A DNA stretch of 35,384 nt from Lachnospiraceae bacterium (GTDB lineage: Bacteria; Bacillota; Clostridia; Lachnospirales; Lachnospiraceae): the NCBI GenBank assembly GCA_029067805.1, contig JAIEDW010000260.1, positions 1 through 35,384 of the forward strand, read 5' to 3'. The position numbers and the translations under genes were made by a program. Under the pieces are notes generated by a model. That model searched no databases. It was not told where the DNA came from and saw nothing but the letters and a program-made list of their open reading frames with translations. Shown one piece after another: positions 4,104 to 26,353 of the stretch (position 1 is the stretch's first letter; each line of letters opens with the position of its first letter).

Positions 4104-5777
4104 TTATATCTCCATTATGATAGGCAGTATCATCGGGCGCCGTTTTGTTTTCTTCCACACAAAATCGCTCAGCGTATCTTTAATCGTTCCCTTGATTTTG
4201 CCCCAGTCCGTAATATTTTTCTTTAGGCAGCCAAGTACCGCCTTTTCAATCACCTTATGCGCTTCTTCCAAAAGCGCATCCGATTCTTTTACATATACAA
4301 AGCCGCGCGATACAATGTCGGGACCCGCAAGCAGTTCCCCCGTCGCACCGTCAAGCGACATCACAACGATCAGAATTCCGTCCTCCGCAAGGTGCTGTCT
4401 GTCGCGCAAAACCACGTTTCCGACATCGCCCACGCCGAGTCCGTCCACAAGCACAGCTCCCACAGGAACCTTGTCTACAACTTGTGCGCTCTCCTCATTC
4501 ATTGCAAGAACATCGCCCGATTGCAGGATAAACACATCCTCTTTCTCGTACCCCAAGTCTCGTGCAATCCTTGCCTGTGCCTTCAAATGCTTATACTCAC
4601 CGTGCACGGGAACAGCATATTTCGGCTTTGTGAGCGCGTAAATCAGCTTAATTTCCTCCTGACAGGCATGTCCCGAAACATGCGTTTCCTGGAAGATAAC
4701 ATCCGCGCCTTTTTTGAACAACTCATTTATGACACGCGTGACAGCTTTTTCGTTTCCGGGAATCGGGCTTGAAGAAAAGATGACTGTATCGCCCGCACCG
4801 ATAGAAATTCGCTTATGCATACCGTTCGCCATACGGCTTAACGCCGCCATGCTCTCCCCTTGGCTTCCCGTTGTAATGATTACCGTCTTATCTCGCGGAT
4901 AATTTTTCAGCCGCTCAATATCAATCAACGTGTTGTCGGGAATGCTGATACGGTTTAATCCGGACGCCGTTTCGATGATGTTCACCATACTGCGCCCTTC
5001 CACGACAACCTTTCTTCCGAATTTATATGCCGTATTGATAATCTGCTGTACTCTGTCCACATTGGATGCAAACGTCGCTATGATAATGCGCGTCTTTTTG
5101 TGCTCCTCAAATAGAGTGTCAAACACATGCCCGAGCGTTTTTTCGGAAGGTGTAAAACCCTGACGCTCCGCATTGGTGGAGTCGCACATCAGCGCAAGCA
5201 CGCCCTTTTTGCCAAGCTCCGCAAAACGCTGTAAATCAATCGCATCACCGTATACAGGCGTGTAGTCTACCTTGAAATCGCCTGTGTGCACGACAACTCC
5301 CGCCGGCGAATAAATTGCAAGCGCCGCCGCATCTACGATGCTATGATTCGTCTTGATAAACTCAATCCGAAAACATCCTAAATTGATGTTTTGTCCGAAT
5401 TTTACAACTTTTCTGCGCACATTGTGGATCAGATTATGCTCCTCAAGCTTGTTCTCGATAATTCCCATCGTAAGCTTTGTGGCATAAACGGGCACATTCA
5501 TCTCCTTCAACACATAAGGAAGCGCACCGATGTGATCCTCGTGTCCGTGCGTGATGACAAAACCCTTTACTTTGTCCTGATTGCTCTTTAAATAAGTGAT
5601 ATCGGGAATCACCAAATCGACTCCGAGCATATCATCCGCAGGGAAACTAAGACCGCAGTCCACCACAACAATACTGTCTTCATACTCAAAGGCAGTAATG
5701 TTCATTCCAATCTGCTCAAGTCCCCCCAAAGGAATAATCTTGAGCTTCGCCGTATGTTGTTTTTTGTTCTGTTTCAA
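4104..5777 (-). CDS. rnj: ribonuclease J
   Basis: 557 aa; LKIIPLGGLEQIGMNITAFEYEDSIVVVDCGLSFPADDMLGVDLVIPD, TH[G]HEDHIGALPYVLKE, HVSGHACQEEIKL: beta-CASP RNase J motifs. Confidence 0.97.
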   Translation of the reverse strand: MKQNKKQHTAKLKIIPLGGLEQIGMNITAFEYEDSIVVVDCGLSFPADDMLGVDLVIPDITYLKSNQDKVKGFVITHGHEDHIGALPYVLKEMNVPVYATKLTMGIIENKLEEHNLIHNVRRKVVKFGQNINLGCFRIEFIKTNHSIVDAAALAIYSPAGVVVHTGDFKVDYTPVYGDAIDLQRFAELGKKGVLALMCDSTNAERQGFTPSEKTLGHVFDTLFEEHKKTRIIIATFASNVDRVQQIINTAYKFGRKVVVEGRSMVNIIETASGLNRISIPDNTLIDIERLKNYPRDKTVIITTGSQGESMAALSRMANGMHKRISIGAGDTVIFSSSPIPGNEKAVTRVINELFKKGADVIFQETHVSGHACQEEIKLIYALTKPKYAVPVHGEYKHLKAQARIARDLGYEKEDVFILQSGDVLAMNEESAQVVDKVPVGAVLVDGLGVGDVGNVVLRDRQHLAEDGILIVVMSLDGATGELLAGPDIVSRGFVYVKESDALLEEAHKVIEKAVLGCLKKNITDWGKIKGTIKDTLSDFVWKKTKRRPMILPIIMEI

Positions 5778-5850
5778 ATTAAACCTCCTATAAATTCTTT
5801 CGCGGTAATGCCTTCAGTCCCAAAGCGATTACCTTTCACGTTCATTCTTT

Positions 5851-6108
5851 TTAGATAAAATCGATGTCATCCAACATATTTTCAAAAACGCCCGATACAG
5901 CCGCAAGTTCGTTATCATCGTCCACCATGCGATACACCTGCTCATTACTCTCCGCATCGGATTCCGTCTTTAAAATATACGCCTCGCCATCTTCATCATC
6001 TTCCGCATCTGTTACTAAAATATAGTTCACCCCACCGATCGTCGTCTGCTCCAGCACATAAAAGTCCACAGCATCACCACCGTCCGGCATAAAGGTAATC
6101 TTTTCCAT
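5851..6108 (-). CDS. DUF1292 domain-containing protein
   Basis: 85 aa acidic protein; ITFMPDGGDAVDFYVLEQTTIGGVNYILVTDAEDDEDGEAYILK; located between ruvX and rnj. Confidence 0.85.
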   Translation of the reverse strand: MEKITFMPDGGDAVDFYVLEQTTIGGVNYILVTDAEDDEDGEAYILKTESDAESNEQVYRMVDDDNELAAVSGVFENMLDDIDFI

Positions 6109-6116
6109 AAGACGTA

Positions 6117-6545
6117 TTACTCCTTATTTTTCAAATAGTCCAAATATCCTTGCAAAATAAAAACCGCCGCTATCTTGTCAACGTGTTCTTTCCGCTCCTC
6201 ACGTCTTATACCGGCATCTATCATCGCTTTATCTGCTGCCACTGTAGTCAAACGCTCATCCCATAACTGTACATCAAGCCCTGTCCTTCTCTCAAGCATT
6301 TCCCGAAACGCAAGTGTTTTCTCTGCGCGCTCTCCCAAAGTGTCATTCATGTTTTTGGGAAAACCAAGCACAATCTCATCGACCTCGTACTCCAAGATCA
6401 GCGCTTCTATACGAGCCAAAGTCTGACGAAGTTTATTCTCAGACTTTCTACGTATAATCTCCAATCCCTGTGCTGTAATCAACAACGGGTCGCTTACAGC
6501 TACTCCAACCGTCTTTGAACCAAAGTCCAACCCCATTTTTCTCAT
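6117..6545 (-). CDS. ruvX: Holliday junction resolvase RuvX (YqgF)
   Basis: 142 aa; [64 protein letters not shown]. Confidence 0.95.
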
Positions 6546-6551
6546 GTGTCT

Positions 6552-6839
6552 CTAAAATCTCCTAATGCTGCTCCAACCCTGACTGACGATATAGTTTTTG
6601 AGCAACTCCTCAACAAGCTCGTCCCGCTCTACTTTCATGATCATCGCTCGCGCGCCCTTGTGGCTTGTTATGTAAGTCGGATCACCTGACATAATATAGC
6701 CGACAATCTGATTGACGGGATTGTATCCTTTTTCCGTAAGAGCGGCATACACGGAAGACAACACATCCTTAACCGAAACAGCCTCTCCCAAATCTTCCGG
6801 CGTCAACTGTATAAATTGTGTGCGTGTTAAATCTTCCAT
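6552..6839 (-). CDS. IreB family regulatory phosphoprotein (UPF0297)
   Basis: [55 protein letters not shown]. Confidence 0.93.
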
Positions 6840-23314: not shown

Positions 23315-23416
23315 TGTGATTTCCTCTTTCTTTTGGATATCTGTAAATATGTCCATTTATCCGGTAGTTTATTTAAATATTATGGCAATCTATTACTTTT
23401 TTGACCAGCTGCCACC

Positions 23417-23926
23417 CTACGCTTCCCGTATCAAGGAATACATTCTCATATCCAACACCTTACCGTTTTTGACAGCATTATTTCGGAGAAGTCCCTCAAA
23501 TTCAAATCCTGCTTTTTCGAGCACGCGGCAGGACGCGACATTCTCACTAAAGGGCTCCGCAAAGATTCGGATGATATCTGTATGTTCAAATATATACTGG
23601 CAAGTCTGCTTTACTGCGCTTGTCATGATACCTTTCCCCCAATACGGTTCACCGATATAGTAACCCATTTCCGCAGTTCTGAAATGAATATTCTCACACC
23701 TAAAAACGCCGATACTGCCTATCACTTTATCATCAAGCGTGATTGCAAAAGCAAATGTTTTTTCCTGATCTGCTGAAAGCATTGCAGTAATATATTCTTC
23801 CGCATCCTTTACGGTATATGGATATGGCAATCCGTCACGCAAATTGTCTAAAATCTTTTTATTATTCAGCATTTCCGCCAAATTGACAGCATCTTTTATA
23901 TTCCATTTTCTGATAGAACATTCCAT
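23417..23926 (-). CDS. GNAT family N-acetyltransferase (RimJ/RimL-like)
   Basis: MGYYIGEPYWGKGIMTSAVKQ, RIFAEPFSENVASCRVLEKAGFEFEGLLRNNAVKNGKVLDMRMYSLI; start about 18 nt after the Thg1-like stop. Confidence 0.9.
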   Translation of the reverse strand: MECSIRKWNIKDAVNLAEMLNNKKILDNLRDGLPYPYTVKDAEEYITAMLSADQEKTFAFAITLDDKVIGSIGVFRCENIHFRTAEMGYYIGEPYWGKGIMTSAVKQTCQYIFEHTDIIRIFAEPFSENVASCRVLEKAGFEFEGLLRNNAVKNGKVLDMRMYSLIREA

Positions 23927-23944
23927 AGCCAAAACACCTCTCTA

Positions 23945-24718
23945 TTATTCACCGTCTGCAAACGTCGCAACCCATTCGCCATATTCCCTGCCAAGCACAA
24001 GTTCATAATCCACTATAAGCTCACGCCTTGTTGTCTGCACCGTTTCCTTGGTCACAGGATTGAAGCCTTCCTTCGCGGTATCTTGAAAATAGATACCAAT
24101 ACCGCGTTTCTGCCAATTCGGAAGTTCATTATAATTAATGCCTTTTTGAAACAACAGTTCATTTTTAAAGGCTACCGATTTGCCTTCCAACATTGCCGTT
24201 GCCTGTCCCTGTCCGATACCCTCTTTTCGCAACGCCCAATAGCAATGCGCATTGAGGGAATTTCTATGAGCATCTTCCTGTCGCCATATAAAATAATCAG
24301 CGACTCTTTCAAGATTCGGCAGCGGAATCACGCGGCAGTCAAATGTCGCAACTTTTCCTAATTTTAAAGAAAACACTGCACTTGCCTCTCCTGCAAGTGT
24401 CGAATTTATTTTCCGTACTTTTCTGCCAAACGTATTGTCCGTTGCATGAAATAAAAGTGAAATCTCATCACTCTCCGTAAAGCCGTAGACAACGCGAAAT
24501 CCACACCCCATAAGGTACTTCACCGTTTCCACCATATAATCCCTGAACCGCACATCAAAGGGCGCTTCAAATTTACAGATTTCCTTTGTCAGCCTTGTAA
24601 ACGACCTGCCGTCAAGCCTTGCTACAAGATACATATCCGGCAGTATGTATTGGTCAAGCGATTCCTCATAAATACGCATCTGCCTGTCAAAATCATCAAA
24701 TTTCATCTCTATCACCAT
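23945..24718 (-). CDS. Thg1-like protein (tRNA(His) guanylyltransferase family, 3'-5' RNA polymerase)
   Basis: LVARLDGRSFTRLT, GFTESDEISLLFH (paired catalytic-Asp motifs), GRKVRKINSTLAGEASAVFS, FDCRVIPLPNLERVADYFIWRQEDAHRNSLNAHCYWALR, KNELLFQKGINYNELPNWQKRG. Start may be ATG at 24706. Confidence 0.93.
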   Translation of the reverse strand: MVIEMKFDDFDRQMRIYEESLDQYILPDMYLVARLDGRSFTRLTKEICKFEAPFDVRFRDYMVETVKYLMGCGFRVVYGFTESDEISLLFHATDNTFGRKVRKINSTLAGEASAVFSLKLGKVATFDCRVIPLPNLERVADYFIWRQEDAHRNSLNAHCYWALRKEGIGQGQATAMLEGKSVAFKNELLFQKGINYNELPNWQKRGIGIYFQDTAKEGFNPVTKETVQTTRRELIVDYELVLGREYGEWVATFADGE

Positions 24719-24751
24719 ACTCCTTTCACAGTCTGCGAATTCTAATGTACA

Positions 24752-25207
24752 TTAATCTTCTCCCACTTTCCAGTCTTCCACAATCATCTGCTCGTTCTCC
24801 ATATGAACAAAATACAATTGGTCAAAACCTTCCGTATAACTTGGCATCTCCAATTTATTGGAAGTCGCTGCAATCGCATTTCTTGGTACTTTAGCTTTTC
24901 CTTCTCTTTTCTCATTGCGCTCCACACAATCACTGATGCGCGATTGAAAAAAATATCCCGTTACATGATATCCGCTTTCTTTTGCCCTGCTGATATATCC
25001 TTGCCTGTCTGCCACTGTCGGATTTGTATTATCAATAACCATACTTCTCCCCAAAGCAAAGCATTCCTCCAACGCAATCCGCTCCTTATTGCGGGTGTGA
25101 AGAGTATCCAAGTTAATATGTGCATATTGCGCAAATTGTTTATGATAAAACGTCGTCTTACCACTCGCCTGTATTCCTATGAAAATAACCATTTCTTTAT
25201 TGTTCAT
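24752..25207 (-). CDS. AAA/P-loop kinase resembling the 5'-kinase domain of polynucleotide kinase (PNK)
   Basis: GIQASGKTTF Walker A; HINLDTLH (candidate catalytic Asp); VIDNTNPTVADRQGYISRAKESGYHVTGYFF; CVERNEKREGKAKVP. Start set at ATG 25207; the ORF track begins at GTG 25249. Confidence 0.82.
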   Translation of the reverse strand: MNNKEMVIFIGIQASGKTTFYHKQFAQYAHINLDTLHTRNKERIALEECFALGRSMVIDNTNPTVADRQGYISRAKESGYHVTGYFFQSRISDCVERNEKREGKAKVPRNAIAATSNKLEMPSYTEGFDQLYFVHMENEQMIVEDWKVGED

Positions 25208-25291
25208 GTTCTTTTCTACCTGTTTATCTCTGCTATTATTTACAAACACATGATAATTTCATCGCTAATTATTAATTTTTATTTGCATTTT

Positions 25292-25319
25292 GTAATTATG
25301 ACATATATGTCATAATTAC
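25292..25319. promoter_or_regulatory. perfect 28-bp palindrome between prmA and the PNK/Thg1 cassette, candidate operator
   Basis: GTAATTATGACATATATGTCATAATTAC equals its own reverse complement; no U-tract on either side. Confidence 0.6.
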
Positions 25320-25324
25320 TCAGT

Positions 25325-26293
25325 TTACACATGCTTCCGCGCCGTCACATTTACCCACTCCCCTTGATAGGTAACGTCAATAACCTCAAGTCCTGCCTGC
25401 TCCACCGCGTCACGGACGACTTGTTCCTTATTATCAATAATACCCGATGTAATATAAATGCCGCCTGGCTTTAGTTGGTTTACAATAATGGGTGTGAGCG
25501 GAACTAACACATCTGCCAAAATATTTGCGACAACAATGTCATATTTTTCATAACCCACTTTGTCCTGCACAGCTTTATCAGTAATAATATTCCCAATCAT
25601 CATCTCAAAACATTCAGGCTTAATATCATTCGTCTTCATATTTTCGCGTACAGCCTCCACCGCACATGGGTCCAAATCCGTTCCCATCGCATGCTTAATA
25701 CCATACATTAAGGAAATAATTGCAAGGATTCCGCTGCCCGTTCCCACATCAAGCAGCTCTGTTTCCGGTGTGATATATTTTTTTAACTGTCTGATGCAAA
25801 GCTGCGTCGTTTCATGCATTCCGGTTCCAAATGCCGTTCCGGGATCAATATGCAGTATCTTCTTATCCTTATCCTCGGGTTTTACCTCTTCCCATGACGG
25901 AATCACAAGCAAATCATCAATATAAAATTGATGGAAAAACTGTTTCCAGTTGTTGATCCAGTCAATATCCTCCGTTTCCGACACCATAATCGTGCCCTCG
26001 CCCACATCCATAAAATTCCGCAGACCGTCCAACTCCTGCTTGATGTTTGCAACTATTTCGTCTGTGTCAACAGGATTTTCCTCACTATCCTCCACAAAAA
26101 AACTAAGATACGCAATCCCATCGTCTTCCGGTCCGTCGGGAAGAATATCAACAAACATCTGCTCTTTCTCCAGCGGCGTCAACGGAACCTTATCTTCAAT
26201 CTGGGCACCCTCCAACCCAATATCATAGAGCGTGCTGATAATGATATCCTCAGCATCCGTAATCGTTTTTACCGTAAATTTTTTCCACTTCAT
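25325..26293 (-). CDS. prmA: 50S ribosomal protein L11 methyltransferase
   Basis: MKWKKFTVKT, DPGTAFGTGMHETTQLCI, LLDVGTGSGILAI, DIVVANILADVLVPL; ORF track extends to 26317. Confidence 0.96.
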   Translation of the reverse strand: MKWKKFTVKTITDAEDIIISTLYDIGLEGAQIEDKVPLTPLEKEQMFVDILPDGPEDDGIAYLSFFVEDSEENPVDTDEIVANIKQELDGLRNFMDVGEGTIMVSETEDIDWINNWKQFFHQFYIDDLLVIPSWEEVKPEDKDKKILHIDPGTAFGTGMHETTQLCIRQLKKYITPETELLDVGTGSGILAIISLMYGIKHAMGTDLDPCAVEAVRENMKTNDIKPECFEMMIGNIITDKAVQDKVGYEKYDIVVANILADVLVPLTPIIVNQLKPGGIYITSGIIDNKEQVVRDAVEQAGLEVIDVTYQGEWVNVTARKHV

Positions 26294-26353
26294 CTGTTTA
26301 TCCCCTTTCACAACCAAACATCGACACGCTGCCGCGAGTCATTTTATTGGATG

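Follow-up and report, generated by a model that had tools for sequence, protein, structure and literature searches.

The stretch of DNA analysed here (the window; 35,384 nt, contig JAIEDW010000260.1 of the Lachnospiraceae assembly GCA_029067805.1) carries on its minus strand two co-directional open reading frames (ORFs) separated by 33 nt. The upstream ORF (24752..25207) encodes a predicted PNKP-type P-loop 5′-OH polynucleotide kinase domain, a stand-alone protein of 151 aa, and the downstream ORF (23945..24718) a predicted Thg1-like 3′-5′ polymerase (Thg1-like protein, TLP) of 257 aa. The pair is flanked by prmA (25325-26317) on one side and by a GNAT acetyltransferase gene (23417-23932) on the other, with rsmE nearby; no RNA ligase or phosphatase gene adjoins it, and no tRNA gene lies within the window. 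This layout agrees with an earlier note on the window, which had drawn attention to the tight spacing, to the motifs of both proteins and to the lack of an adjacent ligase or phosphatase, and which had put the pair forward as a candidate RNA 5′-end repair module.

The kinase and its partner polymerase

Domain searches, solved structures and a predicted fold support placing the upstream protein in the polynucleotide kinase (PNK) family rather than among the small-molecule kinases, and activity on 5′-OH ends would be expected of it as a member of that family. It matches Pfam AAA_33 at 53.7 bits, far above chance (cut-off 27), and its top NCBIfam model is TIGR01663, PNK-3′Pase (E 1.4e-14). The score for this model falls far below the whole-protein cut-off because the kinase domain alone is present, and the chain holds no 3′-phosphatase or ligase domain. 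Its best solved relative is mammalian PNKP, both by single-sequence search (5.7e-12) and by profile search of the Protein Data Bank (PDB; 5.1e-18), followed by two fungal kinases, Clostridium thermocellum Pnkp, and seryl-tRNA kinase (3.9e-5, profile search). Foldseek, run on a predicted model with a mean pLDDT of 90, also placed PNKP nearest (3.9e-12, TM 0.76-0.84) and then C. thermocellum Pnkp (7e-9), with gluconate kinase (7e-6) and zeta toxin (about 2e-5) more distant. The fold comparison that the earlier note had called for thus set PNKP ahead of the small-molecule kinases.

The motifs GIQASGKTTF, NLD, VIDNTNP, and RNEKREGKAKVP are all present in the kinase. Compared with residues K15, D35, R38, R122, and R126 of T4 Pnkp, the Walker A motif GIQASGKT (residues 11-18; 25154..25177, on the minus strand like all protein features below) aligns its K17 with K15. 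D34 (25106..25108; invariant in 15 relatives) aligns with the catalytic D35, and R97 and R101 of the lid motif RNEKR (24905..24919) with R122 and R126. The Walker A lysine K17, the general-base aspartate D34, and the lid arginine R101 are all invariant in the relatives. The position of T4 R38 is occupied by H37, with an invariant R39 two residues further on, and mammalian PNKP likewise has no arginine there. The likeness first noticed to the 5′-kinase of T4 Pnkp holds at the level of the PNK family, while mammalian PNKP is the nearer relative and R38 is not at its aligned position.

The downstream protein was confirmed as a TLP, matching Thg1 at 105.8 bits (cut-off 29.2) and Thg1C at 62 bits (cut-off 26.3), far above chance. 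The closest solved structure by sequence (2.9e-33) and by fold (3.2e-21) is 5AXK, the Methanosarcina acetivorans TLP. By alignment, RLDGRSF (24599..24619) supplies R34, for binding the nucleoside triphosphate (NTP), and the metal ligand D36. The SDE (24464..24472) within ESDEISLLF supplies the activation-site serine S83, the metal ligand D84, and a third carboxylate, E85. D36, D84, and E85 match the three carboxylates (D30, D75, and E76) of the Bacillus thuringiensis TLP (BtTLP; 4KGK/4KGM), a member of the same superfamily with about 35% identity. The nucleotidyl-transfer residues R27, K96, and R133 of ScThg1 are kept as R34, K103, and R129, which are invariant in the alignment. As previously noticed, HRNSLN (24251..24268) stands where eukaryotic-type Thg1 has HINNLYN, a motif absent from the window TLP.

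One catalytic position differs from the characterized enzymes. Pairwise matches of the TLP to 5AXK and to human Thg1 align A52 (24563..24565) with the activation-step lysine (BtTLP K43, ScThg1 K44), whereas the gap placement chosen by MAFFT sets K49 there, a residue that varies among relatives. We treated this lysine as a catalytic residue and not as one that defines the Thg1/TLP family. Across the genome loci described below, together with the window, the position holds Ala in about nine of ten cases, and thus in nearly all of the clade; TLPs from the viral collection mostly have Arg or Lys, and the M. acetivorans TLP has Lys. The statement that the TLP keeps both catalytic motifs therefore stands for metal binding, with the qualification that the activation-step lysine has become Ala. 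This lysine positions ATP in the activation step, and in BtTLP crystals K43 contacted ATP but not GTP (PMC3701042). Judged from the alignment, loss of the lysine in this clade would predict altered 5′-end activation, and because K43 contacts ATP and not GTP, GTP-based activation is a reasonable prediction for TLPs with A52.

Linkage and mobility of the pair

Scanning species genomes with the TLP alignment gave 80 best loci, from Lachnospiraceae, Oscillospiraceae, Chloroflexota, Bacteroidota, and others, and in 61 of them a kinase gene lies on the same strand within 350 nt of the TLP gene. With viral-collection contigs included, 65 pairs were available, all with both genes on one strand, the kinase coming first in 63 and the TLP in 2. 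The median gap is -11 nt, an overlap, and 58 of the 65 pairs lie within 50 nt. Distances among the kinases correlate with those among the TLPs over these pairs (Mantel r 0.78; 0 of 2000 permutations reached this value, the best being 0.35). Among 98 related genomes, 14 carry the TLP and 13 the kinase, and all 13 kinases adjoin a TLP; among 397 Bacteroidota genomes, the TLP occurs in five, with the kinase beside it in four. Two Bacillota genomes from another family have a distant TLP clade paired, in reverse gene order, with a member of this kinase family. The two genes are thus tightly spaced and co-inherited, and these counts support a pairing that is widespread, well beyond a single strain, and, for this kinase family, nearly exclusive. 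Two of the outcomes that the earlier note had named as refuting its model, a better fit to another kinase family and adjacency in only this strain, are thereby contradicted. The prevalence across the phylum is low, at 3 of 399 genomes. Lachnospiraceae bacterium A4, a cultured strain, is among the carriers. No third partner recurs in the 80 loci, where the next commonest neighbor families (11 of 80) are generic ones such as response regulators, ABC ATPases, and HTH proteins.

Phages often carry TLPs (125 records), mostly without this kinase. The idea that the pair resides chiefly in phages was rejected, as the kinase matches only two phage records (both at 27% identity) and only two viral-collection loci. 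On one viral-collection contig of 273 kb (L255, 4953-7336), the kinase is followed by two tandem TLPs, the first of which has QVTG at the expected RxDG and may be inactive. At another locus (L069, 4335-6002), the kinase is fused behind a leucine-rich-looking repeat region in a 555-aa ORF directly upstream of the TLP.

The pair moves as one unit, for which sister species provide a natural empty site. Sister genomes G010 and G012 have the same GNAT gene ahead of rsmE, with neither kinase nor TLP. In G010, GNAT comes immediately after prmA; here homology with the window stops at 25333, the end of prmA, and restarts at 23941, before GNAT, giving an approximate extent of 23942..25332 for the inserted cassette. 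On the rsmE tree, TLP carriage among 21 genomes needs five changes. The GNAT gene was considered as a third gene of the module and ruled out, since the sister genomes keep it behind prmA without the kinase or TLP; it is older at the site than the cassette and lies outside the unit. A compact two-gene unit with an empty site in sister species makes a clean comparison of gain and loss possible.

Proposed RNA 5′-end repair and competing explanations

Our preferred reading, to which we assign a probability of roughly 0.6, is that the kinase and TLP form a mobile two-gene cassette for RNA 5′-end repair. The substrate would be an RNA with a 5′-OH end left by a metal-independent RNase, a toxin, or chemical hydrolysis. 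The kinase, if it acts as its family does, would transfer the γ-phosphate of an NTP to this end to give a 5′-phosphate. The TLP would then activate the 5′-phosphate with an NTP and add nucleotides 3′ to 5′, with the facing strand of a stem (the tRNA acceptor stem, for example) as template, until the helix was complete; both steps have been seen in vitro with other TLPs. The rebuilt 5′ end could be the final product or could later be sealed by a ligase encoded elsewhere. TLPs repair 5′-truncated tRNA in vitro (PMC3701042, PMC6471195), and the cellular role of bacterial TLPs is an open question (PMC6471195). Should the pair indeed rebuild RNA damaged to 5′-OH ends, it would represent a backward-polymerizing repair route, possibly one that counters RNA-cutting toxins.

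Several points weigh against this reading. The TLP stands without a kinase in 19 of the 80 loci, including those of the two TLPs nearest to that of the window (L020 and L021; 80-81% identity), which means that this TLP does not strictly require the kinase. A second predicted 5′-kinase, an HD-domain and AAA_33 fusion, is also encoded in the genome, and the need for a dedicated one is not obvious. The activation lysine of characterized TLPs is replaced by Ala, and only stem-internal 5′ damage could be rebuilt, because loops have no template. Finally, the openly licensed literature searched yielded no biochemical test of a kinase-TLP pair. At L020 and L021 (about 5490-6770), an EamA-like transporter ORF lies upstream of the TLP in place of the kinase.

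TLPs of the same clade are found in varied RNA-repair company. The TLP genes of Butyrivibrio and Oribacterium overlap or just precede an RNA ligase gene (PF21189+PF09414), often with metallophosphoesterase genes and a T4-RnlA-type ligase gene next, and in one case with KptA instead; TLP operons of this kind in these genera are L053, L064, L071, L073, L075, L086, and L089. RlaP lies near the TLP in a Clostridia metagenome-assembled genome and on a Thiodictyon plasmid, and on a Deinococcus plasmid Hen1 and RlaP lie only a few genes beyond the kinase-TLP pair. Window-type TLPs also occur on phage-like contigs, one of them near KptA. Because same-clade TLPs sit with ligases, KptA, RlaP, and Hen1, the TLP belongs to RNA repair in general, with differing partners.

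Ligases are also present in the window's own assembly. A 3.1-kb contig (C414; L312, 3-1846) carries an RNA ligase gene followed by the gene for the HD-domain and AAA_33 kinase fusion, probably a heal-and-seal RNA repair operon, and an RtcB-family gene lies on another contig. The fusion protein resembles known HD-Pnk enzymes. A search of the openly licensed literature found no paper dedicated to HD-Pnk, and PDB searches with the fusion protein and with the RNA ligase gave no match at E 0.01. With this operon and the RtcB gene in the genome, and with Butyrivibrio TLPs sitting beside ligases, the missing adjacent ligase favors neither rebuilding nor sealing, and the earlier preference for rebuilding is not upheld.

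These same genes lend some weight to gap-filling before sealing, which we nonetheless think unlikely. In that scheme, the kinase and TLP would restore lost 5′ nucleotides, and a ligase elsewhere, from the RNA ligase and HD-kinase operon or RtcB, would rejoin the halves. On this view, the TLP would act at 5′ ends as the counterpart of RlaP, to which a review of jumbo phages gives a nucleotide-restoring role before ligation (PMC7824862). The Butyrivibrio TLP genes that overlap or touch ligase genes fit this scheme, as does the presence of the RNA ligase in all 8 carriers of the TLP-kinase pair against 3 of 16 others among 24 genomes of the genus (Fisher p 2e-4). After correction for relatedness on the tree, however, one or two informative independent pairs are left (sign test p 0.5), and genome size differs as well; we therefore rejected the co-occurrence as proof of a joint pathway, as the genomes are not independent. 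The ligase, moreover, lies on a different contig, and the 5′-triphosphate carried by TLP products would need trimming to a monophosphate before ligation. It is likewise doubtful, though conceivable, that the TLP of this clade lost its ATP-positioning lysine because it activates 5′-phosphates differently (with GTP only, or using ends from the kinase partner) and that the cassette performs 5′ gap-filling in ligase-dependent RNA repair. If true, kinase, reverse polymerase, and ligase would form a coupled repair system new to biochemistry.

We regard it as very unlikely that the pair tags 5′ ends, converting 5′-OH RNA to NppRNA or pppN-RNA and so protecting or marking RNA in a stress or anti-phage response. 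The lost lysine suggests changed activation chemistry, and the patchy, mobile distribution and the TLPs on phage-like contigs would suit such a role, but PADLOC returned no defense-family match, no defense neighbor recurs among the 80 loci, and direct evidence for tagging was not found. It is highly improbable that the TLP serves as a back-up for adding G-1 to tRNA-His and that the kinase just happens to lie beside it. The bacterial and archaeal TLPs examined in published work are able to place G-1 opposite C73 in vitro (PMC6471195), but five carrier relatives (G002, G003, G015, G022, and G023) have G-1 and C73 encoded in their tRNA-His gene, just as non-carriers do; the window strain's own gene was not found in the assembly. 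G-1 addition is therefore not the need, in line with the earlier note, which had called it no obvious need in bacteria, and the pairing with the kinase is far from incidental. There is equally little to be said for the AAA_33 protein being a small-molecule kinase or a zeta-type toxin that came to lie beside the TLP by chance. The AAA_33 family is broad, and 10 of 15 kinase relatives also match Pfam Zeta_toxin weakly (best 2.4e-7), but PNKP is the better match by many orders of magnitude in both sequence and fold, the catalytic Asp and T4-type lid RN..R are conserved, and no antitoxin-like partner recurs near the kinase at related loci.

Known systems and further features of the locus

The central idea of a repair cassette is already known. 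In their account of this neighborhood, Anantharaman, Iyer & Aravind (2010; Biol Direct 5:43, PMC2904730) describe a persistent bacterial association of Thg1 with a P-loop kinase of the polynucleotide kinase family, with Clostridiales among the organisms and a MACRO protein or RNA ligase in a subset, and propose that the kinase supplies the 5′-phosphate used by Thg1 in an RNA repair role. The window pair, also adjacent and co-directional, is a further member of that predicted kind, and its presentation as a new candidate module was thus anticipated in both operon and mechanism. The ligase of their neighborhood is not adjacent in the window and lies beside same-clade TLPs in other genomes. Measured against that account, our analysis adds the mobile cassette with its empty site, the near-exclusive linkage of the kinase, the replacement of the activation lysine by Ala, and an RNA ligase operon on another contig of this genome. 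The residue change and the co-occurrence with the ligase yield specific predictions. We found no later test of the kinase-TLP pair in the openly licensed journals searched.

Other known systems share parts of this arrangement. Mammalian PNKP, C. thermocellum Pnkp, and T4 Pnkp have the same kinase fold, P-loop, catalytic Asp, and lid arginines, whereas the window kinase comes without a 3′-phosphatase or ligase domain. BtTLP differs in that its listed plasmid neighbors include no kinase. Phage and Butyrivibrio operons for RNA repair, with RNA ligases, KptA, RlaP, and phosphoesterases, include TLPs of the same clade; none of those partner genes adjoins the window pair.

Some smaller features of the locus remain to be described. 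The annotated TLP start is probably 12 nt too early, judging by homologues that begin at the fifth codon, M5 (ATG 24706). The kinase ORF has an alternative GTG start at 25249, and its relatives begin close to ATG 25207. The spacer between prmA and the kinase contains a perfect 26-bp palindrome, TAATTATGACATATATGTCATAATTA (25293..25318), which is AT-rich and might act as an operator or form a hairpin behind prmA; as it is present in a single copy in the genome, a repeated mobile-element end was ruled out. The gap between prmA and rsmE is a variable spot for accessory genes, and a short stretch at 23338-23366 resembles a remnant of the NUDIX-like gene found between GNAT and rsmE in G010 (L258).
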